Of a stretch of 32,249 bases of DNA, positions 161 to 12,211 are shown piece after piece. Below the pieces are notes generated by a model. The model saw nothing but the letters and a program-made list of their open reading frames with translations. It was not told the DNA's origin and did no database searches. Origin of the DNA: Candidatus Cloacimonetes bacterium HGW-Cloacimonetes-3 (GTDB taxonomy: Bacteria > Cloacimonadota > Cloacimonadia > Cloacimonadales > Cloacimonadaceae); assembly GCA_002840645.1 (NCBI GenBank), contig PHBO01000020.1, forward strand, positions 1 to 32,249. The letters are read 5' to 3'. A program made the translations under genes and the position numbers. Positions within the stretch are counted from its first letter, which is position 1; each line of letters begins with the position of its first letter.

Positions 161-2080
161 ATGCGATTTAGCCACAAACTGACGATACTGATAGCACTAT
201 TGATGCTTGGAGCAAGCTCTGTGATAGCGCAGACGGTGAAATTCACCCTGGATAAGAGTAGCCTGAAACCCGGTGAAAAGGGGATATTGCGGGCAACTTT
301 AAGCATCCCTGAGGGGCAGAAGCAATCCTTTAACCCCCAAGAGCCGGAATACTTTTATCTGGAAGCACAGCATCCGGATTTGAAGTTCGCAAAAGTTGTT
401 TATCCCAAGGCAACTAAGGTTGTTTCGGAAGAGGAATGGCAATATCACCCGCAGGTTACGCTCAGTTTGCCTTTCACCGTTAATACTACCGCCAAGGCGG
501 GGACAAAGCAGATAAAAGCTTTACTTAGCTATAACTTATGCTATGACAGCGGTATGTGCAACCCGCCCGAAGAAGCGGAAGGCATAGTTAAGCTTGAGGT
601 TGCCGCTGCTGATAAAGCGGTAGCGGTTAACAATCAGGCGGGGACGCCGGAAAACCTTGCCGGCGAGGGCTCTGGCATTCAGAACCCAAACACGGTAACA
701 CCCCAAAACTCCAACACCACAGAACTCCATAACCCAAACACTCCAGAACTCCAGAACCCAAACACTCCTGAACTCCAGCACTCCAGCACCCCAACACCCC
801 AGAACCCCACCCCTCCCGTCCCCTGGAAGGAAGTGCTGAAATACATCCTCTTTGCCTTTCTGGGTGGGATAATTTTAAATATAACTCCCTGCGTGCTGCC
901 GATTTTACCTATCCGCATTATGAGCATCATGAATCAGGCGCAGAAGGATAAAAGCAAGGTTTTGCGCCACACGCTTGTTTACACCGTGGGTGTGCTGATC
1001 TCCTTTGCTGCGATGGCGGGAGTGTTTATTGCCCTGCAACAGGCGGGAGAATCCGCCGGATGGGGCTTGCAGAACCAAAATCACGGCTTCGTGATTGCCC
1101 TGATGGCAGTGGTGTTTGTGTTTGCATTATCGCTTTTGGGCGTGTTTGAAATGCATGCTCCGGGGATGAATACCGCCACAAAAGCCACAAGCAAAGGTGG
1201 CTACAGCGGGTCGTTCTTTGGCGGTATCTTTGCCTTCCTGATGGCGATATCCTGCACGGGACCGTTCTTAGGAGCTGCGCTGCCTTTTGCGTTGAAGCTT
1301 CCTCCTACGCTGATGATGGTGTTTTTCCTAACTCTTGGGCTGGGTTTTGCCTTCCCCTTCCTGCTGATCGGGATGGTTCCAAAAGCACTGAAGATTATTC
1401 CCAAACCGGGCGATTGGATGGTGCTGTTCAAAGAACTGATGGGCTTTGTGCTGCTTTACATAGTTTATACCCAGCTGAAGACGCTACTGATGCTAACCGA
1501 TGGCGATTATTTCCTTAAAGTGATCTGGTTTATGCTTATTCTGGGCTTTGCCGTGTGGCTGTATGGACGCTTTGTGCGTATGGAACACAGCAAAATAACG
1601 CAGTGGGTGTTTACCATCCTGCCTTTGATGCTTATTGTGTCCGCTGCGTTTGTGTATCTGCCCTATAAAGAAACTGCTGCCAAAACAGCGTTGCCGGGCA
1701 GCGGCGAAATGATGCCTGCCCCACATGCACCGGAAGGCTGGTATGTGTTTAGCGAAGAGCTTTTTAACAAGCTTAGCGAAGAAGGCAAGCCGGTATTTCT
1801 GGATATTGGTGCAGCCTGGTGTAAAAATTGCACCACTAACGAGAAAACCGTGCTGTTTACCGAGGATGTTATGAAACAATTTGCCGATAAAGGCGTGGTG
1901 CTGCTGCGTGGGGATTTCACCAAAAAAGACGAAGCTCTGCTGGCGTGGATAAAGAAGCATGACCGTGCCGGAGTACCCTTTAATGCTTTGTATATTCCCG
2001 GGCAGGTACCTTATATCTTCGGTGAGCTTATCACCAAAAATGAAATTAGCAATGCGCTATCCGGGATAGCAGGAGAATAG
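161..2080 (+). CDS. dsbD: DsbD-family thiol:disulfide interchange protein
   Basis: An inner-membrane protein of 639 residues that would move reducing power from cytoplasmic thioredoxin to envelope thiol proteins. The order is: signal peptide (1-23), a DsbD-alpha-like domain (about 25-150), a low-complexity Asn/Pro/Thr linker (about 168-220), a transmembrane DsbD/CcdA domain (about 225-505), and a C-terminal thioredoxin domain. The membrane cysteines are visible at C244 (in ITPCVLPILPI) and C365 (in ISCTGPF). The thioredoxin pair is C554-K-N-C557. This is the full three-domain DsbD layout. The start is supported by GGAG in CTGGAGG ahead of ATG. The next gene begins at the base after its stop, so the operon is tightly packed. 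The linker is encoded by near-tandem DNA repeats, an oddity noted separately. Confidence 0.93.
   Translation: MRFSHKLTILIALLMLGASSVIAQTVKFTLDKSSLKPGEKGILRATLSIPEGQKQSFNPQEPEYFYLEAQHPDLKFAKVVYPKATKVVSEEEWQYHPQVTLSLPFTVNTTAKAGTKQIKALLSYNLCYDSGMCNPPEEAEGIVKLEVAAADKAVAVNNQAGTPENLAGEGSGIQNPNTVTPQNSNTTELHNPNTPELQNPNTPELQHSSTPTPQNPTPPVPWKEVLKYILFAFLGGIILNITPCVLPILPIRIMSIMNQAQKDKSKVLRHTLVYTVGVLISFAAMAGVFIALQQAGESAGWGLQNQNHGFVIALMAVVFVFALSLLGVFEMHAPGMNTATKATSKGGYSGSFFGGIFAFLMAISCTGPFLGAALPFALKLPPTLMMVFFLTLGLGFAFPFLLIGMVPKALKIIPKPGDWMVLFKELMGFVLLYIVYTQLKTLLMLTDGDYFLKVIWFMLILGFAVWLYGRFVRMEHSKITQWVFTILPLMLIVSAAFVYLPYKETAAKTALPGSGEMMPAPHAPEGWYVFSEELFNKLSEEGKPVFLDIGAAWCKNCTTNEKTVLFTEDVMKQFADKGVVLLRGDFTKKDEALLAWIKKHDRAGVPFNALYIPGQVPYIFGELITKNEISNALSGIAGE
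731..778 (+). repeat. 24-bp tandem repeat in dsbD linker
   Basis: Two adjacent 24-bp units, 731-754 and 755-778, differ at one base and both encode NPNTPELQ. Degenerate versions of the same CCAGAACTCCA and CCCAAACAC words extend over about 679-822. That stretch is almost free of G on the + strand. Because the unit is a multiple of 3, changes in copy number would alter linker length without shifting frame. Confidence 0.8.
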
Positions 2081-3205
2081 ATGAGATACCTTTATATTAT
2101 GCTGATAGTTACGCTAGCCCTGTTAAGCTCTTGCGACCGCTATGAGCACAATTATACAACTCCGGTAGGGACAGATTATGCGGTGGAGCTTTTCACTCCG
2201 CTACAAACCGCTTTTAACCAATCCAATGCTAACGATATTAGCCCGGTGATGGCACATTATGCCGATGATTACCTACATTTCGGGATAAGTAAAAGCGAAT
2301 GGGAACTGGAACTGCGCACCCTGATAACCGGGGTAGCTAATCCCATGTTTGAAGTTATCATGGGCAGTGCTATGCAGCAGAATGAAACAAACGCCATCGC
2401 CAATTGGCAGCTAAGGATAAGTGATCCTGATTCCAAAAGAGTGATTGCAGACAGCACCTTCGTGGGCGAAAGACTGGTGAAGCGCGGGAGTAAGTGGTTG
2501 CTGAAAGGTAACCAAATGATCTGCGAACCGCCTGCGGGGAAACAACTGGTGATTGCTGAATACTTCACCTACCTTTCCTGTAATAACTGTCCACCTGCCG
2601 AGGAAAAGCTAAAAGAACTGCAACTGCAATACCCGCAGAATTTTGTGTATCTTGAGCAACATACCAGCGGTGATTTGCAGATAGTGGGAGACACCACGCC
2701 AAGCTATTATGCAGCTTACAGTCCTCCCGTAACCGTGTTTAACGGCATGGTTAAGGTAACGCAGAGTGTTCCTGCTTCTCTTGCCATCTATCAGAGCCAG
2801 GTGGATGAGCTTGTTACTTTAGACACACCCATTCGGTATCAGGTGCAAAGCGCACCCGTGATAAACGGCAGGGAGCTAAGCGGTTCTGTGCAGTTAACCC
2901 CTCTTATTGCCCTGGATCAAAGCGAGATGCAGCTGCATTATGTGATAATTGAAGAAGAATCGCCATATTCAAATACTACTACCCCAAATGTTAAGCTGCA
3001 CAATGTGGTGCAGGCGCGGGGCAGTGTTAGCTTAAGTGGCGTAAATCTCGCGAGTCCCATTAGCTTTAGTTTAACTTCCCCAAGGGATTTGCCCGAGGAT
3101 ATCCGCTTGATTGTATTTGCCCAAAAGAGACCCAGCCCTTTCCAAAATAACGCTACGATATATGGGGGATTAGATATTCCGCTATTACGCAAGGGAGCTA
3201 AATAA
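2081..3205 (+). CDS. Lipoprotein with thioredoxin-like CxxC domain
   Basis: A 374-residue predicted lipoprotein. The N-terminus MRYLYIMLIVTLALLSSC ends in a lipobox, with C18 as the likely lipidated residue. Residues 20-150 form a domain I do not recognise, resembling the SnoaL/NTF2-like average in character (inference only). From about 155 a thioredoxin-like region appears, with C167-N-N-C170 in FTYLSCNNCPPAEEKL, then a run containing YYAAYSPPVTVFNGMVKV that resembles Omp28-type proteins. The cis-Pro-like 'PPVTVFNG' fits a thioredoxin fold. ATG follows directly after the dsbD stop, with the ribosome site (AGGAG) inside the dsbD end. Its stop overlaps the next ATG by one base (TAATG), so translation is probably coupled. 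It is a plausible client or partner of DsbD. Confidence 0.75.
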   Translation: MRYLYIMLIVTLALLSSCDRYEHNYTTPVGTDYAVELFTPLQTAFNQSNANDISPVMAHYADDYLHFGISKSEWELELRTLITGVANPMFEVIMGSAMQQNETNAIANWQLRISDPDSKRVIADSTFVGERLVKRGSKWLLKGNQMICEPPAGKQLVIAEYFTYLSCNNCPPAEEKLKELQLQYPQNFVYLEQHTSGDLQIVGDTTPSYYAAYSPPVTVFNGMVKVTQSVPASLAIYQSQVDELVTLDTPIRYQVQSAPVINGRELSGSVQLTPLIALDQSEMQLHYVIIEEESPYSNTTTPNVKLHNVVQARGSVSLSGVNLASPISFSLTSPRDLPEDIRLIVFAQKRPSPFQNNATIYGGLDIPLLRKGAK

Positions 3206-3696
3206 TGAAAAAGATACTGTGCTTATTATCCATCCTGATAATGGCTTTAATGCTTTATGCAGAGGCAATGCCGGAGTTCAGGCTACCCGATGAAACAGGC
3301 AAAAAAGTAAGCCTGGAAAGCCTGTTGGGCAAGGGTCCCCTGCTGATTGATTTCTGGGCAGACTACTGCAGCCCCTGCAAGCTTGCCATGCCATATCTGC
3401 ATGAGCTTGCCATCAAATACGATTCTTTAACCGTGGTTTTGGTTTCCATTGATGCCCCCAAGAGCCAGATGAAAGCTAAGAACTACCTTAAGGGCAAGGA
3501 CTATAAGTTTGTCACGCTGTTTGATGCGGAAAAGAGCCTTGCCAAGAAGCTGAACGTCAGCAATCCCCCTCACACCTTCATCTTGAATAAAGAGGGTGAG
3601 ATAGTGTATTCGCACATAGGTTTTGAACCCGGAACAGAGAAGCTTTACGAGCAGCATATACGCAGCATGCTTGGCTTGGAATGCGAGGCAGAGTAA
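3205..3696 (+). CDS. TlpA/ResA-type envelope thioredoxin
   Basis: A 163-residue thiol-disulfide oxidoreductase of the TlpA/AhpC-TSA group. It has a signal peptide or N-terminal anchor (1-19), then the FRLPDETGKKVSLESL start typical of the family. The active site is in FWADYCSPCK, with C55-S-P-C58, and the cis-proline is in NPPHTFILNKEGEIV. Such proteins keep envelope thiols reduced, using electrons passed by DsbD or CcdA, and a dsbD homologue lies two genes upstream in the same operon. It overlaps the preceding stop by one base and is followed without a gap by the next ATG. I would not choose a more specific name such as resA without knowing the substrate. Confidence 0.88.
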   Translation: MKKILCLLSILIMALMLYAEAMPEFRLPDETGKKVSLESLLGKGPLLIDFWADYCSPCKLAMPYLHELAIKYDSLTVVLVSIDAPKSQMKAKNYLKGKDYKFVTLFDAEKSLAKKLNVSNPPHTFILNKEGEIVYSHIGFEPGTEKLYEQHIRSMLGLECEAE

Positions 3697-5142
3697 ATGC
3701 ATAAACGCATAGTGTTACTCCTGTTCGCATTGCTGCTGCTAAGTTTATTGCCGGCGCAAAACACGCTGGCTATAAATGGCTTGAACGAGGCGCAGTTCGT
3801 GTATCGTACTGCTGAGGACTCCTTAAATGCCTATTTTCGTAATAGCTTTGCCATTAATCTGTCTTACCGCAACTTCGGCTTTGGGCTAAAGTACATTGCC
3901 GAGCTGCCGAAGTATTCCACTCAGCAGGCAGAGCTTGTGGATGAGCTAAACCCAAATCAGCTTGAGCTTGGCTGGAAGGAACTTTACGCAACCTACAGCA
4001 AAGATGCCTTTTATATCCATGCCGGAACCATGGAAGAGAGCTTCGGCAACGGGCTAAGCTTCCGCAGCTACATTGATCCCGAATTTGATGAAGATCACCG
4101 TCTGGACGGCTTCTTGTTAAAATATGACGATGCCTACACTTTTAAAGCCATGTATGGCGCTATAGAAAGCCCGGAGAGCATCGGAAATTACGATTTGGCA
4201 TACGGTGCCGATCTGCTTGCTCCTGCGCTCTATGGCATGCGTTTTGGCGCATCTGCTGTCACCTACCGCACCTTGGGTGCCAATGTTTACAATCAGCGGG
4301 ATGTCTTTTCCGGCAGGATGCAAATCAATGGGGAAAATCTGGGAGCATATGCGGAATACGCAAGCAGCGAAACCTATAAGCAAACGGGGCTTCCAACCGA
4401 TTTTGGCAGTGCAATATATGCAAATGCAGACTATAGTTTGGGCAAGCTTCAGCTTGGAGCAGCCTACAAGAAATATACAGACTTTCAATACCGTCTGCAC
4501 GATCTGGCGATGGCAAACTACCACAATGAAACCATCTCCGATGCGCTCCCCACAGGTTTGGACGAAGAAGGCTGGCAAGCCCGTGCTGCCTATTCTGTTA
4601 CCGAATGCCTTAGTGTAAGCACAGACTATGCAGAGGCATGGGACAGCCTAAAAGACAAGCAGATGAACGACCTGTATGTTGCTGCAAACTGGGTGAAGGA
4701 TAACTCGCTGGTAGAAGCCTCCTTCTCTCATGTGGAAAAGGCGGATGATGCAGGGAGCTATTGGCAAAAGGAAACCACTCCTGCTATCAGCCTGGGACTG
4801 CCCGTCTTTGCCAAGCAAGTGTATATAAAAGGCGAATTCAAGATGGCAGAAAAGCAGATATTTGCCTATAAATCGGAGCATTATGAGCCTAAAATACAAG
4901 CTGACCTCAGCTTTGGCAAGCTGGCTTTGTCTTTGGGTGCACAAAGCAATTGGGAAGATTTTGATGCCATTATGGACAGCCGTTATTGGGCTGCTGTGGA
5001 AGCCAAATACCCTGTTGCCAGCCACAGCGATATCACTATTTTTGCCGGCAAGGAAGCCGGTGGCAAGGTTTGCCGCAATGGCGTTTGCCGTTATGTATCG
5101 GCATTTCAGGGACTAAAAGTGGAGCTATCCACGCGTTTCTGA
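3697..5142 (+). CDS. Predicted outer-membrane barrel protein (DUF6029-like)
   Basis: A 481-residue protein with a signal peptide (MHKRIVLLLFALLLLSLLPA) and many alternating, aromatic-rich strands ending in Phe (KVELSTRF), as in outer-membrane beta-barrels. The segment with 'EESFGNGLSFRSY...FDEDHRLDGFLLKY' resembles the DUF6029 family as I remember it; no search was run. There are very few cysteines. Two lie near the C-terminus as C459-R-N-G-V-C464, spaced to form a small disulfide loop, and one more lies in the barrel (TECLSV). Its place directly behind dsbD and tlpA genes, with no spacer, suggests that this cysteine pair is handled by the operon's thiol proteins. That link is inference. Function of the barrel is unknown. 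Confidence 0.78.
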   Translation: MHKRIVLLLFALLLLSLLPAQNTLAINGLNEAQFVYRTAEDSLNAYFRNSFAINLSYRNFGFGLKYIAELPKYSTQQAELVDELNPNQLELGWKELYATYSKDAFYIHAGTMEESFGNGLSFRSYIDPEFDEDHRLDGFLLKYDDAYTFKAMYGAIESPESIGNYDLAYGADLLAPALYGMRFGASAVTYRTLGANVYNQRDVFSGRMQINGENLGAYAEYASSETYKQTGLPTDFGSAIYANADYSLGKLQLGAAYKKYTDFQYRLHDLAMANYHNETISDALPTGLDEEGWQARAAYSVTECLSVSTDYAEAWDSLKDKQMNDLYVAANWVKDNSLVEASFSHVEKADDAGSYWQKETTPAISLGLPVFAKQVYIKGEFKMAEKQIFAYKSEHYEPKIQADLSFGKLALSLGAQSNWEDFDAIMDSRYWAAVEAKYPVASHSDITIFAGKEAGGKVCRNGVCRYVSAFQGLKVELSTRF

Positions 5143-5165
5143 ACAAATAGATAAGGAGAATTATT

Positions 5166-6512
5166 ATGAAATATATCAGTTTACTACTTGCCTTGTTACT
5201 TGCAAGTATGCTTTTTGCAGAGCCGGAGTATGTACCTTATACCACTATGGCGGAGCATTTAGGCTCCAGCACTTGCGGAGGTTGCGCAGTCGCCTGGCAG
5301 GGATTGCAGGTGCCTCTGGCGCAAACGCACAATGGCGAGTTTTTTGTTGCCAAATTGTACACTCAAAGCGGAGATTTAACCACAGATGCGGTGTTAGACC
5401 GCTTCAATTATTATGAAGTAATAGGCATTCCTGCCGTTATCTTCAATGGTAAAACCAGGGTAAACGGCAGTGGAGACGGTATTGCAGACGGCAGCATGTA
5501 TAACAGCGCTCTAAACCAATACCGTTACAGTTCTTCCCCCCTACAGATGTCGGTAAGCAATTTCTCCGCCACCAGTGGAGAGTTTAGCGGGGAGATTTTA
5601 ATGGTATCCCCCACCCTGAATATCGTGGATGCAAAAGTGGTGTATTACCTGTTGGAAGACAATATCACCGCCTCGGAAACCCATGTAGTGCGCAGTATCT
5701 TATACGACGATCTGAACTTAAGCGGAAACGGAAGCAACTTTGGCTTCAATAAAACCTTCAGCATCAGCCCCGCCTGGAATGCAGCTAATCTATGGGCTGT
5801 TGCCTCGGTACAATTAGTGGATAAGGCAATTTTGCAGAACGTTTCCACCCTTCCTTTGCCTACCTACAACCTAAGGGCAGCGATGGACTGGAACATGAAC
5901 ATCATGCAAGCTCCAACCTTGGAAAACTATAATTCCCCGCCTTTCTGGCTGTTTAACATGGGTACTTCGGATAATTATACTACCAGGATTGTGGTGGATT
6001 CTGCGCCTGCTGGATGGTATTTTAACTATTGTGATGAGGAAGGTAACTGCTATGTTGGTGATATGGATGTGCCCTTAAGCTTGAGTGCCCGGGAGACAAA
6101 GTCCTTTCATCTAAACATGTTGATTGGCAGTCCGGGGGTTGCTTATTTCCGCTTTGTGGTATCCTCTCCCAATATAGGAAGCTACAGTATCCCCTTCCGC
6201 TATGTTACGGAAGGCACTGCCAATAGTGACGATACCCTTATCGCCCAGCCCTTCCGCCTTGGCAATATATACCCCAATCCCGTGAAGCAAAACGCTGAGA
6301 TTATGCTAAATAGCAACAAAAGCATGAGCGGAACCGGTATTGACATCTTCAATCTTAAGGGACAGATGGTGCAAAGTGTTCCCATTCATAAGCTAAATCC
6401 TGGCGAGAACCGCATTGCCTTTAGTGCCGACAAAAGCCTTCCCAACGGAGTGTATTTCTACAAAATCTCCGGCACGGAAACCCCTGCGCGCAAGTTCATT
6501 CTGATGAAATAA
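5166..6512 (+). CDS. Secreted CGGC thioredoxin-like protein with sorting domain
   Basis: A 448-residue secreted protein. It has a signal peptide (1-18) and then an Omp28/thioredoxin-like start with C37-G-G-C40 in SSTCGGCAVAW. The 'YYEVIGIPAVIFNGKTRVNG' segment supplies the cis-Pro-like turn of that fold. A middle beta-rich region follows. A C-terminal sorting domain occupies about 366-448, with 'LGNIYPNPVKQN', 'IDIFNLKGQMVQ' and 'NGVYFYKISG' motifs. The ribosome site is AAGGAG ahead of ATG. It sits 23 nt behind the barrel gene and just before a terminator, so it is the last gene of the dsbD operon. It is probably exported across the outer membrane, which would carry the operon's thiol theme to the cell surface (inference). 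Confidence 0.82.
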   Translation: MKYISLLLALLLASMLFAEPEYVPYTTMAEHLGSSTCGGCAVAWQGLQVPLAQTHNGEFFVAKLYTQSGDLTTDAVLDRFNYYEVIGIPAVIFNGKTRVNGSGDGIADGSMYNSALNQYRYSSSPLQMSVSNFSATSGEFSGEILMVSPTLNIVDAKVVYYLLEDNITASETHVVRSILYDDLNLSGNGSNFGFNKTFSISPAWNAANLWAVASVQLVDKAILQNVSTLPLPTYNLRAAMDWNMNIMQAPTLENYNSPPFWLFNMGTSDNYTTRIVVDSAPAGWYFNYCDEEGNCYVGDMDVPLSLSARETKSFHLNMLIGSPGVAYFRFVVSSPNIGSYSIPFRYVTEGTANSDDTLIAQPFRLGNIYPNPVKQNAEIMLNSNKSMSGTGIDIFNLKGQMVQSVPIHKLNPGENRIAFSADKSLPNGVYFYKISGTETPARKFILMK

Positions 6513-6537
6513 ACAAACCCTCCAATAAGTAAAAAAA

Positions 6538-6561
6538 GCGAGGTGGTTTGCCCCACCTCGC
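6538..6561. terminator. Bidirectional hairpin terminator
   Basis: A perfect 9-bp stem, GCGAGGTGG (6538-6546) with CCACCTCGC (6553-6561), and a 6-nt loop. A run of seven A precedes it and TTTGCTTTA follows it, so it can stop transcription on both strands. It lies between the convergent dsbD operon and sdpRI pair. Confidence 0.88.
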
Positions 6562-6586
6562 TTTGCTTTATCTCCCGATCGTCATA

Positions 6587-8098: not shown

Positions 8099-9721
8099 TT
8101 GTTATTATGCATCCTCATAGCACAAAAGTTATTGCTTTCTAACCCTGTTCCTCAATCGACAATTTTCCAGGTGGCAGGATACTGGTATGAGTTACAAACA
8201 GGTTTACTTCCTACTGTAGAAGCATTTCAAGCTTTACCAGACTCAACAAATCCATCGTTGTACAAAATTGACTATAGTCATGATGGATTTGTTGTAATAT
8301 CAGCAGATGATAGCTGTATTCCAATTTTAGGGTTCTGTGATTATGGGGATTTGGTTACTAATAGACAGAACGAGGCATCGGAAGATATGCTGCTGGATTA
8401 TATAGCGCAAATAGATGATGTTAAAACAAACAATCGTAGCAACGCAGAAACACTTCTCATGGAGTATTCGTTCGAAACCCAAATGGATCATGAAAGCTGG
8501 TATTGGGTTAGCTTCCCGGTGCTAAACACCAGAACCAACGGAATGCTACAGGCGAGTGAGTTCTTTAGGGAACTGCTTGAACTGGGCGAAGATAACATCG
8601 GTAATCCCATTCCAACCTATCTTGATGAAATCACATGGGTAGATGGAGGCGATCCTGAACCGATACATCTTCAATGGTTAACTAATGATTGGTCACCAAA
8701 TCAATACAGCCACACTGTCTCAAGCCCCCAAGGGTATAAGATTAAATTGCTTACAAACACTCCCAATACCGTAACCCTGAAAGAAAGCGGATTCAAAACG
8801 CCGGATACTCTGCAATTCCCACTTTATGAGAATGTGGAAAACTGGATAGGCTATTTCAAAGATGGGCCCCAATCGCCCCGGGATGCTTTTAGTAATATAT
8901 TGAATGATATTGTACTAATCAAAGCAAAGAACTGGAGTTTATATCGTGATCCATCCACAGGACAATTGACAGGGAAACAGGGAACGCTAAACTATGGCGA
9001 TATGGTAATAGTAGTAACTAACAATGACCATACTTTCCAGTGGAGTAATAACAGTGTTGTTCCACCGATAATAAAACAAATTCCAAAGGCTTTTACCTTC
9101 GATGAAAAGCCGGACTATATCCCGGTGTATGTAAACCTGCCGGATAGTTTGGTTTCCGTTATCAAAGAAATTGGATTATATGTGGATGGAGTATGCAAAG
9201 GTGCAGTGGTGGTAGAAGATAACATCGAACAGATTTCTGCCTATGTGGATAGTGTAACTGAACTAAGCCAAGGAAACGTAGAGTATGTGTTTAGTTACGA
9301 AGAAAGCAAAAGCCATGCTGGCGGGCTGGCGTCCATTAGCTTGAACCCAAGTAGGATTCAGGCAAAGTATGGTGTAAGCGGTAACAAGTATCCATATTTC
9401 GAAGTGAACTTCAACACAGATGCTTTGGAAAATATGGTGCCACCGGAGTTTGCCATCGGGCAGAACTATCCCAATCCATTCAACCCCAGTACCACTTTGT
9501 CCTATACCCTGCCGGAATCTGCAAGGGTTCGTCTTGACATTTATAACCTAAAAGGACAATTGGTGAATACCTTGGTTGATTCTCAACAGGATACCGGACA
9601 TCACAGCTCGGTATGGAACGGGAAGGATATGAACAATAGCAATGTAGCCAGCGGAGTATATCTATACCGTCTGAGTAGCCCTCATAAGTCCATCACCAGG
9701 AAAATGCTACTAATGAAGTAA
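8099..9721 (+). CDS. Secreted protein with C10-propeptide-like and sorting domains
   Basis: A protein of about 540 residues. The N-terminal 130 residues, including 'YKIDYSHDGFVVISADDSCIPILGFCDYGD', resemble the Spi/peptidase C10 propeptide domain, but no Cys/His protease domain follows. The middle is unrecognised. The last 90 residues are a textbook sorting domain: 'IGQNYPNPFNPSTTLSYTLP', 'LDIYNLKGQLVNTL', 'SSVWNGKDMNNSNVASGVYLYRL'. The start is odd. The TTG at 8099 has no ribosome site and cuts the signal peptide short. In the same frame, ATA-AAA-AAG at 8084 sits 5 nt behind GGGAG and would give (M)KKLILLLCILIAQ, a normal signal peptide. There is no ATG before the in-frame stop at 8036. The true start is probably 8084 by a rare ATA codon, or the ATG has mutated. 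Confidence 0.75.
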   Translation: MLLCILIAQKLLLSNPVPQSTIFQVAGYWYELQTGLLPTVEAFQALPDSTNPSLYKIDYSHDGFVVISADDSCIPILGFCDYGDLVTNRQNEASEDMLLDYIAQIDDVKTNNRSNAETLLMEYSFETQMDHESWYWVSFPVLNTRTNGMLQASEFFRELLELGEDNIGNPIPTYLDEITWVDGGDPEPIHLQWLTNDWSPNQYSHTVSSPQGYKIKLLTNTPNTVTLKESGFKTPDTLQFPLYENVENWIGYFKDGPQSPRDAFSNILNDIVLIKAKNWSLYRDPSTGQLTGKQGTLNYGDMVIVVTNNDHTFQWSNNSVVPPIIKQIPKAFTFDEKPDYIPVYVNLPDSLVSVIKEIGLYVDGVCKGAVVVEDNIEQISAYVDSVTELSQGNVEYVFSYEESKSHAGGLASISLNPSRIQAKYGVSGNKYPYFEVNFNTDALENMVPPEFAIGQNYPNPFNPSTTLSYTLPESARVRLDIYNLKGQLVNTLVDSQQDTGHHSSVWNGKDMNNSNVASGVYLYRLSSPHKSITRKMLLMK

Positions 9722-9730
9722 ATGAAGATA

Positions 9731-9753
9731 GCGGGGAGGAAGCCCCTCCCCGC
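9731..9753 (+). terminator. GC-rich hairpin between two secreted-protein genes
   Basis: GCGGGGAGG (9731-9739) pairs perfectly with CCTCCCCGC (9745-9753) around a 5-nt loop. The tail ATTATATT is only weakly T-rich, so it may reduce rather than abolish read-through into the gene starting at 9770. Confidence 0.65.
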
Positions 9754-9769
9754 ATTATATTGAGGAACA

Positions 9770-12211
9770 ATGAAACTGATAGATACCTTGTTAATCCTTG
9801 CCTTGCTGTTACCATGTGTTGGCAGTGCCACAACCCGAACGGTTAGGCAGGATGGCAGCGGTGATTACACTGCTGTTCAGACTGCATTGGATGCTTCCCA
9901 GCCGGGTGATTCGGTTTTGGTTCATCCCGGTAGGTACTACGAAAACCTGATTATTGGAACCAATAATATCAGCTTGATCAGTCTGGAGGCTGTATCTGAT
10001 AACCCGGCGCATATTGATTCGACAGTTATTGATGGGACTTTGACTAATCCATGCTTAAGAGTTAGCCAGGGCAAAACTAATATTTACATTCGAGGTTTAT
10101 CCTTTACCAATGGTCTAAGCGTTGGTTCGGGTGGCGGTATTTCATTCAGTTCAGGATCCAGTGCATCCCTAATAAATTGTAAAGTATTCGGCAACACAGC
10201 TAATTTTGGTGGAGGAATAAATGTTATTGGGGCTACTGTAACTTTCAGTGGAGTTGAGATATCTGATAACTACTCCAAGATACTTGGCGGAGGATTAATG
10301 GTTGTTTCAATAACAGGATATCCCCACGCGATAACCTTTGACCCCCTTAACCGCTGCTCTATCTACAACAACCGTTCAGGCTCGGGTCAGGATATCTTCA
10401 TTCAGGACGCTACCGGCAATCAGAATGTATATCTGGATACCTTTTCTGTAGATAATCCCGCAAGCTATTATGCGATATTCAAAACGCAAAACAATGCGGA
10501 TTATCACATGAACATAGACATTCTTAACGCCCATCATCAGGAGATAAATAGCGATATTTACATTTCTCCCGATGGAGATGATGACAATGATGGGCTTAGC
10601 CCTGCCAGCTCATTAAAAACCATTCACGAAGGCATCTACCGTATTGCCTCGGATAGTCTGAACCAAAAGACTGTGCACCTGATGCCGGGAACCTATTCCC
10701 GTACTGCTAACGATCAGGTATTTCCAATTGCGTTAAAGAGTTGGGTGATAGTTCAAGGAAGTGGGATGGAAAACACTGTGGTTGTCGGAGAGCCCCACCC
10801 GCAGATTCCTGTCAGTTACGGATCAGCCGATAGTGTCTTTATGACCTATATTGAGCCAGTTCTATCAATGTCAGACTTTTCAATCACAACTATGGGAGTA
10901 ACAAATGGTAATGCGATAGTAAGTGTGTGGGATGGTTGCATGAATCTAAAAAATATGCGGATTCACAATGTGAACCCTGACTACATTGCCTCTGTGTTAT
11001 TATGGCATAATAGCGAACGTGATGTTGTTTGGGATAATGTCATTGTAGAGAATGAGATTACTCCTGATGGAGGCTTAGTCAATATTGAAGGGAGTGTTGC
11101 GGGCAGATTTACTAATTGTGTATTTAGGAATGCAACTTCTACCTACTCCTCTACTTCAGTTTGGGCATATCCATTAGTGCTATTTAGAGGAGATAAAAAC
11201 CTCATTTTTGAAAACTGCGAGTTCAGCAACTTAACCATGAGTGATGACAATTCTATAGCAATTGGAATTGGTGGAGTGCAATATCCCCAGCAACAGAATA
11301 ACTTCAGCTTTAATAACTGCCTCTTTAATAATAATACATCTCCCGGTGGTATAATTGGGGTTAATTCAAAAAACAACCCCAATATGAGCTTCACTAATTG
11401 CACTTTTGCCGGAAATGAAAGTAATACCTATACTCTTGCAACTAATGGTAATGTAGATATCACCAATACAATCTTTTATAATAACAGCCCATATCAGATC
11501 CAGGTTGTTCCCCAGACCGTTACCGGTGAGACAACAACCTTGAATATTGACTATTCCAATATCAAAAACGGGATGGCGGGCATACAGCAAGCTCCGGGGA
11601 ATACCATCAACTACCATCCCACCAGCATCAGCAACAACCCACGATTCCTGGGTGGGGATGATATTCACAATCCGCAGTACTATAGCCTATCAAGCGTTTC
11701 ACTTTGCATAGATGCCGGAACACCAGATACTTTAGGATTATTCTTGCTACCTTACGATCTGGCAGGTAATGTGCGCGTTTGGAATGGCAGGATAGATATG
11801 GGCTGCTTTGAATACGGTTCTCTGCCTTATGTGGGTGTTGATGATCCCGAGTTACCACCTCCCCCCGGAGGGTTTCGGGTATCAGTTTATCCCAATCCAT
11901 TGTTAAACACCAGCCGGGCAGCGGGAGTATTCATCGAATTCACATTACCCAAGAAACCCGCTTCACAACCTGAAATTGAGATTTATAATATCCGCGGACA
12001 GAAAGTTAGGAGCATCTGCGTAACAGAAAGCAACCACAGCATAATTGACAAAACTGGTTTATCAGGAGACCTAAAGCAAAATGGGGAGCTATATTCCTCT
12101 GTTTGGAATGGCAAAGATGACAACGACAGGTCACTTGCATCAGGGACATATATAATCCGGGCAATTGCCGACCAGAAGGTGGCAACCACAAAGATAACGA
12201 TTATCAAATAG
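9770..12211 (+). CDS. Secreted beta-helix protein with sorting domain
   Basis: An 813-residue protein. It has a signal peptide (1-20) and then 'VRQDGSGDYTAVQTALDASQPGDSVLVHPGRYYENL', the usual opening of right-handed beta-helix proteins. A second opening near residue 264, 'ISPDGDDDNDGLSPASSLKTIHEGI', matches DUF1565. Asn-rich rungs of the type NCxFxxN run through both halves. The C-terminal sorting domain begins near 700 with 'VSVYPNPLLNTSRAAG' and contains 'EIYNIRGQKVRS' and 'SSVWNGKDDNDRSLASGTY'. The ribosome site is GAGG 4 nt ahead of ATG. Such proteins are often surface adhesins or polysaccharide-binding proteins, but nothing here fixes the ligand. A close relative is cut by the right end of the window (31735-32249). 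Confidence 0.85.
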   Translation: MKLIDTLLILALLLPCVGSATTRTVRQDGSGDYTAVQTALDASQPGDSVLVHPGRYYENLIIGTNNISLISLEAVSDNPAHIDSTVIDGTLTNPCLRVSQGKTNIYIRGLSFTNGLSVGSGGGISFSSGSSASLINCKVFGNTANFGGGINVIGATVTFSGVEISDNYSKILGGGLMVVSITGYPHAITFDPLNRCSIYNNRSGSGQDIFIQDATGNQNVYLDTFSVDNPASYYAIFKTQNNADYHMNIDILNAHHQEINSDIYISPDGDDDNDGLSPASSLKTIHEGIYRIASDSLNQKTVHLMPGTYSRTANDQVFPIALKSWVIVQGSGMENTVVVGEPHPQIPVSYGSADSVFMTYIEPVLSMSDFSITTMGVTNGNAIVSVWDGCMNLKNMRIHNVNPDYIASVLLWHNSERDVVWDNVIVENEITPDGGLVNIEGSVAGRFTNCVFRNATSTYSSTSVWAYPLVLFRGDKNLIFENCEFSNLTMSDDNSIAIGIGGVQYPQQQNNFSFNNCLFNNNTSPGGIIGVNSKNNPNMSFTNCTFAGNESNTYTLATNGNVDITNTIFYNNSPYQIQVVPQTVTGETTTLNIDYSNIKNGMAGIQQAPGNTINYHPTSISNNPRFLGGDDIHNPQYYSLSSVSLCIDAGTPDTLGLFLLPYDLAGNVRVWNGRIDMGCFEYGSLPYVGVDDPELPPPPGGFRVSVYPNPLLNTSRAAGVFIEFTLPKKPASQPEIEIYNIRGQKVRSICVTESNHSIIDKTGLSGDLKQNGELYSSVWNGKDDNDRSLASGTYIIRAIADQKVATTKITIIK

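Follow-up and report, generated by a model that had tools for sequence, protein, structure and literature searches.

Why would an operon that begins with dsbD also encode an outer-membrane β-barrel, and do the cysteine pairs found in all five of its products belong to one system? This question is raised by a window of 32,249 nucleotides, the whole stretch of DNA that was analysed, which is an entire contig of a 2.7-Mb Cloacimonadota draft genome. The reading favored here, with a probability of about one half, is that the operon may encode a dedicated envelope reductive thiol relay that has the barrel as its client, with a TlpA-type thioredoxin placed at the periplasmic mouth of the barrel or in its lumen.

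The five genes and their cysteine pairs

A first-pass annotation had described five genes with gaps of -1 to 23 nt and a cysteine pair in every product. Both points hold: all open reading frames lie on the forward strand with gaps of 0, -1, 0 and 23 nt, and every pair named was found at its residues. Gene 1, dsbD (161..2080), encodes a complete DsbD, which is the inner-membrane electron input. The alpha, TM and gamma domains and three cysteine pairs are all present, i.e., C127/C133 in DsbD-alpha, C244 and C365 in DsbD_TM and C554KNC557 in the C-terminal thioredoxin domain. The earlier cysteine list for this protein was right about C244/C365 and CKNC and had overlooked the alpha-domain pair. 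Profile matches were obtained to PF02683 (E 2.6e-22), PF13899 (E 6.1e-14) and PF11412; the last of these, to the alpha domain, scores under the Pfam threshold of that family (21 vs 25 bits), and the NCBIfam cut-off for DsbD is not reached either (159 vs 330 bits). The DsbD cysteines are kept across relatives. Tandem repeats at window positions 680-809 encode an NPNTPELQ-rich linker between the alpha and TM domains. Upstream of dsbD, the start of the contig (window 1-45) can form an RNA hairpin (-21.4 kcal/mol, z -1.9) that has no match in Rfam.

Gene 2 (2081..3205) encodes a lipoprotein with a lipobox cysteine (C18), an NTF2-like part, a thioredoxin-like part with C167NNC170 (codons 2579-2581 and 2588-2590) and a beta domain. 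The protein resembles Omp28/DUF1223, and it is not counted as an Omp28 member, as it scores under the cut-off of that family (PF11551 / NF033782; 33 vs 150 bits). The lipobox cysteine, both CxxC cysteines and P216 are invariant in 48 lipoproteins. The AlphaFold2 model (pLDDT 93) retrieves 2axo and cystatin/NTF2-like folds with Foldseek, and HMM matches are to thioredoxins and, weakly, to HBP35 (5y1a). In a few deep lineages (L109, L112, L116, L126, L141) the CxxC is a CxxCH, a haem-like motif with one site in each protein.

Gene 3, tlpA (3205..3696), encodes a TlpA/ResA-like periplasmic thioredoxin with C55SPC58 (codons 3367-3369 and 3376-3378). It belongs to the TlpA/ResA group by its AhpC/TSA-Redoxin fold and CxPC active site, with matches to PF08534 (E 1.8e-18) and PF00578 (E 2.5e-18). 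In one clade the TlpA proteins have additional cysteine-rich C-terminal tails (L055, L072, L090 and others). Gene 4 (3697..5142) encodes the barrel, a member of PF19494 (DUF6029; E 8.2e-21, 74.7 bits vs a cut-off of 27), and gene 5 (5166..6512) a secreted Omp28-like protein with C37GGC40, C289/C295 and a type IX sorting tail. A terminator-like hairpin with a 12-bp stem (6535..6564; strand not assigned), recognized by a consensus match only, probably closes the operon. Further downstream, at window 8099-12211, two more proteins with secreted tails are encoded, of which one has a Spi-inhibitor domain and the other is a beta-helix protein. A PADLOC search gave 0 matches.

Conservation of the module and exchange of its electron input

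The gene order, which had been proposed as a first check in relatives, is a phylum-wide module of the Cloacimonadota. PF19494 is present in 57 of 61 close relatives; across the phylum it occurs in 103 of 125 genomes, or in 66 of 71 if only good genomes are counted. In a set of 90 loci with distinct, non-redundant barrel sequences, counting only loci where the contig leaves room, TlpA adjoins the barrel or is fused to it in 82/82, an upstream CxxC lipoprotein is encoded in 78/79, an upstream DsbD in 64/69 and a match to the gene 5 profile lies within 600 bp downstream in 79/83. The same order recurs in 60-80 other Cloacimonadota loci, while the genes flanking the module differ from subclade to subclade. 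Scanning of contigs retrieved the operon from Cloacimonadota and from two contigs titled Armatimonadota (L123, L126); the latter nest among Cloacimonadota and are probably mislabelled MAGs. A plasmid search for DUF6029 outside the phylum gave no match, and a search of IMG/VR with a degenerate motif for DUF6029 of other phyla gave only two chance matches.

Two of the products are physically tied at five loci (L056, L057, L120, L127, L156), where the N-terminus of the barrel is fused to an entire TlpA domain that carries a signal peptide of its own. The joint is immediately past the signal-peptide region of the barrel, and about 10 residues separate the two profile matches. This layout suggests that TlpA is placed beside the periplasmic rim of the barrel.

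Five loci lack an upstream DsbD. In one of these, L051, DsbD is encoded downstream, and the other four belong to genomes that are devoid of any DsbD_TM (G054, G093, G095 and G046, 93-97% complete) and retain the lipoprotein, TlpA and the barrel. Their loci encode a stand-alone DsbD-alpha with a C-x4-C pair, a NapH/MauN-like four-iron-sulfur membrane protein and a further TlpA, which points to one electron input having been swapped for another. One genome, G060, has both DsbD and the NapH-type input. For flavinylated systems, several alternative inputs at the membrane have been described, and both DsbD and NapH are among them (PMC8238504). In a barrel tree built with FastTree the cases with the alpha domain and NapH are close together and may therefore have a single origin. 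DsbD-alpha, a NapH/MauN-like polyferredoxin and TlpA adjoin the module at L057:9848-11847, L165:9582-11624, L155, L156 and L056, and four of these genomes are wholly without DsbD_TM. In two genomes of one genus (G119, G121; 95-96% complete) dsbD is kept, the barrel and a full-length lipoprotein were not found and no tlpA lies downstream of dsbD. As this co-absence is confined to one lineage and the NapH and fusion cases occupy a single part of the barrel tree, few independent events are likely to be involved. Altogether, synteny, the TlpA-barrel fusions and the replacement of DsbD by a NapH-type input strongly support, at the level of sequence, a functional unit of DsbD, TlpA and the barrel.

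The DUF6029 barrel and its cysteine hairpin

DUF6029 is a barrel family without an assigned function, which presumably also includes Bacteroidota. The literature searched contained no report of a link between DUF6029 and DsbD or TlpA, which is no proof of its absence. In an alignment of 65 barrels with a mean column identity of 41%, only 20 columns are invariant, and these include G455, G456, C459, G462 and C464. The C-x4-C pair, encoded at 5071..5088 within GGKVCRNGVC, is present in 89/89 readable barrel C-termini, so that the barrel cysteines do not vary in the presence of dsbD and tlpA, as had been asked of them. Since C459 and C464 are among the few invariant columns and the gene order recurs in the relatives, the arrangement seen in the window is beyond chance. 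The full GGxxCx4C motif occurs in 88 barrels, 38 of which have no other cysteine. The C-x4-C pair is not specific to the Cloacimonadota; this idea was rejected, as the pair is fixed in the PF19494 profile and the window barrel shares its C-terminal C-x4-C block with the family. When C459 or C464 is replaced in silico by alanine in the last 101 residues, the PF19494 score drops by 7.4 bits in either case, while changing the RN between the cysteines to GG raises it by 5.5 bits, which marks the cysteine pair as a hallmark of the whole of DUF6029.

The AlphaFold2 model of the barrel (pLDDT 91.3, pTM 0.82) has about 24 strands, as counted from the DSSP string, with C459 and C464 on the hairpin of strands 456-460/463-467, immediately before the last strand. 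The C-terminal strand of outer-membrane barrels of this type terminates in the periplasm, and the model thus places the pair in the last extracellular loop. Consequently, a periplasmic TlpA could reach the pair only via the lumen. Foldseek retrieves generic large barrels, the best being the 24-strand FimD/PapC ushers (TM 0.57), and the list also holds MtrB (6r2q_B) and AlgE. The presence of AlgE among these many barrels, together with a reported HHpred link of DUF6029-like barrels near OPX proteins (PMC9603273), would fit a polysaccharide exporter, a role that has been suggested for such barrels. This is very improbable, as the 14 largest flanking-gene clusters include no recurrent neighbor for polysaccharide export and the thiol genes would be left unexplained.

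The pair could also form a purely structural disulfide, with DsbD, TlpA and the lipoprotein as maturation factors that clear mixed disulfides during barrel assembly. Oxidoreductases do act on mixed disulfides during the assembly of LptD, a cross-strand disulfide at a β-turn is an ordinary stabilizer and the pair is fixed across DUF6029. However, many barrels have just two cysteines, five residues apart, so that there is no mispairing to fix, and such a role, which is considered rather unlikely, would hardly seem to call for three reductants dedicated to it and a fused TlpA.

Gene 5, related systems and a putative relay

The first-pass annotation had proposed an electron route from the inner membrane over the barrel to the secreted CGGC protein. 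While a functional unit of DsbD, TlpA and the barrel is upheld by the synteny, the fusions and the NapH swap, the hand-off to the CGGC protein is not general. Gene 5 encodes a probable type IX secretion cargo, as judged from its C-terminal sorting domain (PF18962, E 1.2e-10, 41.9 vs a cut-off of 27 bits), and is Omp28-like without being a member (PF11551 / NF033782; 21.4 vs 34.9 bits). C289/C295 are invariant in 38 aligned full-length proteins, and C37GGC40 is lineage-specific: a CxxC within the first 90 residues occurs in 27 of 40 full-length, one of 32 short and none of six long downstream genes, i.e., 28/78 in total. A role for gene 5 as obligate last step was therefore rejected, and a surface thioredoxin as general terminus is unsupported. 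In the lineage of the window, the protein may be a surface recipient, with an accessory role. At loci whose gene 5 no longer has the CxxC, a protein of 490-503 aa with a C-terminal TlpA domain is encoded after it (L055, L058, L072, L085, L090, L100, L103, L129).

At six loci of one clade (L066, L071, L082, L084, L089, L142), gene 5 is directly followed (gaps -3 to 2) by a metal transporter gene that was labelled ZupT-like by eye from its sequence; in a seventh, L078, this gene lies further downstream. Together with the iron transporter that is sometimes present in DsbD/DUF3570 clusters (PMC8238504), these genes give a weak hint that the barrel could be a pore through which a metal or sulfur compound is imported, with TlpA and the lipoprotein reducing the ligand for its release or uptake and C-x4-C binding it or acting as a gate. 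The metal transporter is confined to one clade, though, and a TonB-type plug or a conserved transport neighbor was not found, which makes such a pore, like the structural disulfide, rather unlikely but a serious rival to the relay.

Of the systems described so far, the DsbD/DUF3570/DUF4266 clusters, HBP35 and MtrCAB come nearest to the module, which is none of them. The clusters of DsbD, thioredoxin, DUF4266, DUF3570 and ApbE likewise combine DsbD and a thioredoxin-like protein with an uncharacterized extracytosolic protein and a small protein with a cysteine motif (PMC8238504). In contrast, matches to DUF3570 and DUF4266 are absent from the module, no flavin component was seen and ApbE was not noticed as a recurring gene in the surveyed flanks; membership of these flavinylated-barrel systems was rejected, as the [S/T]GA[S/T] flavinylation motif occurs in only 2/65 barrels. 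Secondly, HBP35 (PG0616) of Porphyromonas gingivalis is a type IX-exported surface protein with a thioredoxin CxxC and insulin-reductase activity, and illustrates that surface thioredoxin-type proteins exist; the parts of its description consulted do not tie it to a DUF6029 barrel (PMC2907840), and the CxxC is kept in only some relatives of gene 5. Thirdly, the module resembles the porin-cytochrome conduit MtrCAB in having a large barrel and a periplasmic electron carrier. The carriers are haems in MtrCAB and thiols here, the TlpA motifs are of the CxPCK type instead of multihaem CxxCH, and a sequence relation was not found.

A full thiol conduit across the outer membrane can also be imagined, in which electrons would run from a TlpA inside the barrel to its extracellular hairpin and from there to proteins at the surface. 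The large barrel, the fused TlpA, the cysteine hairpin and, in the lineage of the window, the surface CxxC proteins would suit it, but the placement of TlpA in the lumen is hypothetical and a surface acceptor CxxC is present in only the 28 proteins mentioned. The complete conduit is thus thought improbable. A thiol counterpart of the porin-cytochrome complex, in which TlpA would plug the 24-strand barrel and pass periplasmic reducing equivalents to the extracellular hairpin, is likewise a speculative model with a low probability.

In the preferred reading, the reductive thiol relay, electrons would enter the periplasm via DsbD or, in some relatives, via the NapH-like iron-sulfur protein and a separate DsbD-alpha. 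The biochemistry of DsbD and TlpA is one of reductive electron flow, which, together with the swap of DsbD for a NapH-type input, leads us to infer the reductive direction. The electrons would then pass to TlpA at the periplasmic mouth or within the lumen of the DUF6029 barrel, a step in which the CxxC lipoprotein may assist, and could reduce or switch the C-x4-C hairpin, supposing that the latter is redox-active, or a ligand passing through the barrel. Altogether, these elements suggest that the outer membrane holds a thiol-based redox device of an undescribed type. In a phylum-wide module a thioredoxin is physically linked to a large barrel and exchange of the inner-membrane electron source is tolerated, and the uncharacterized Pfam family DUF6029 (PF19494) gains a hypothesis for its function. 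The module makes it a testable question how cells that dispense with cytochromes could use reducing power at the outer membrane or outside it; if true, a barrel plugged by TlpA would be a haem-free electron route across the outer membrane.
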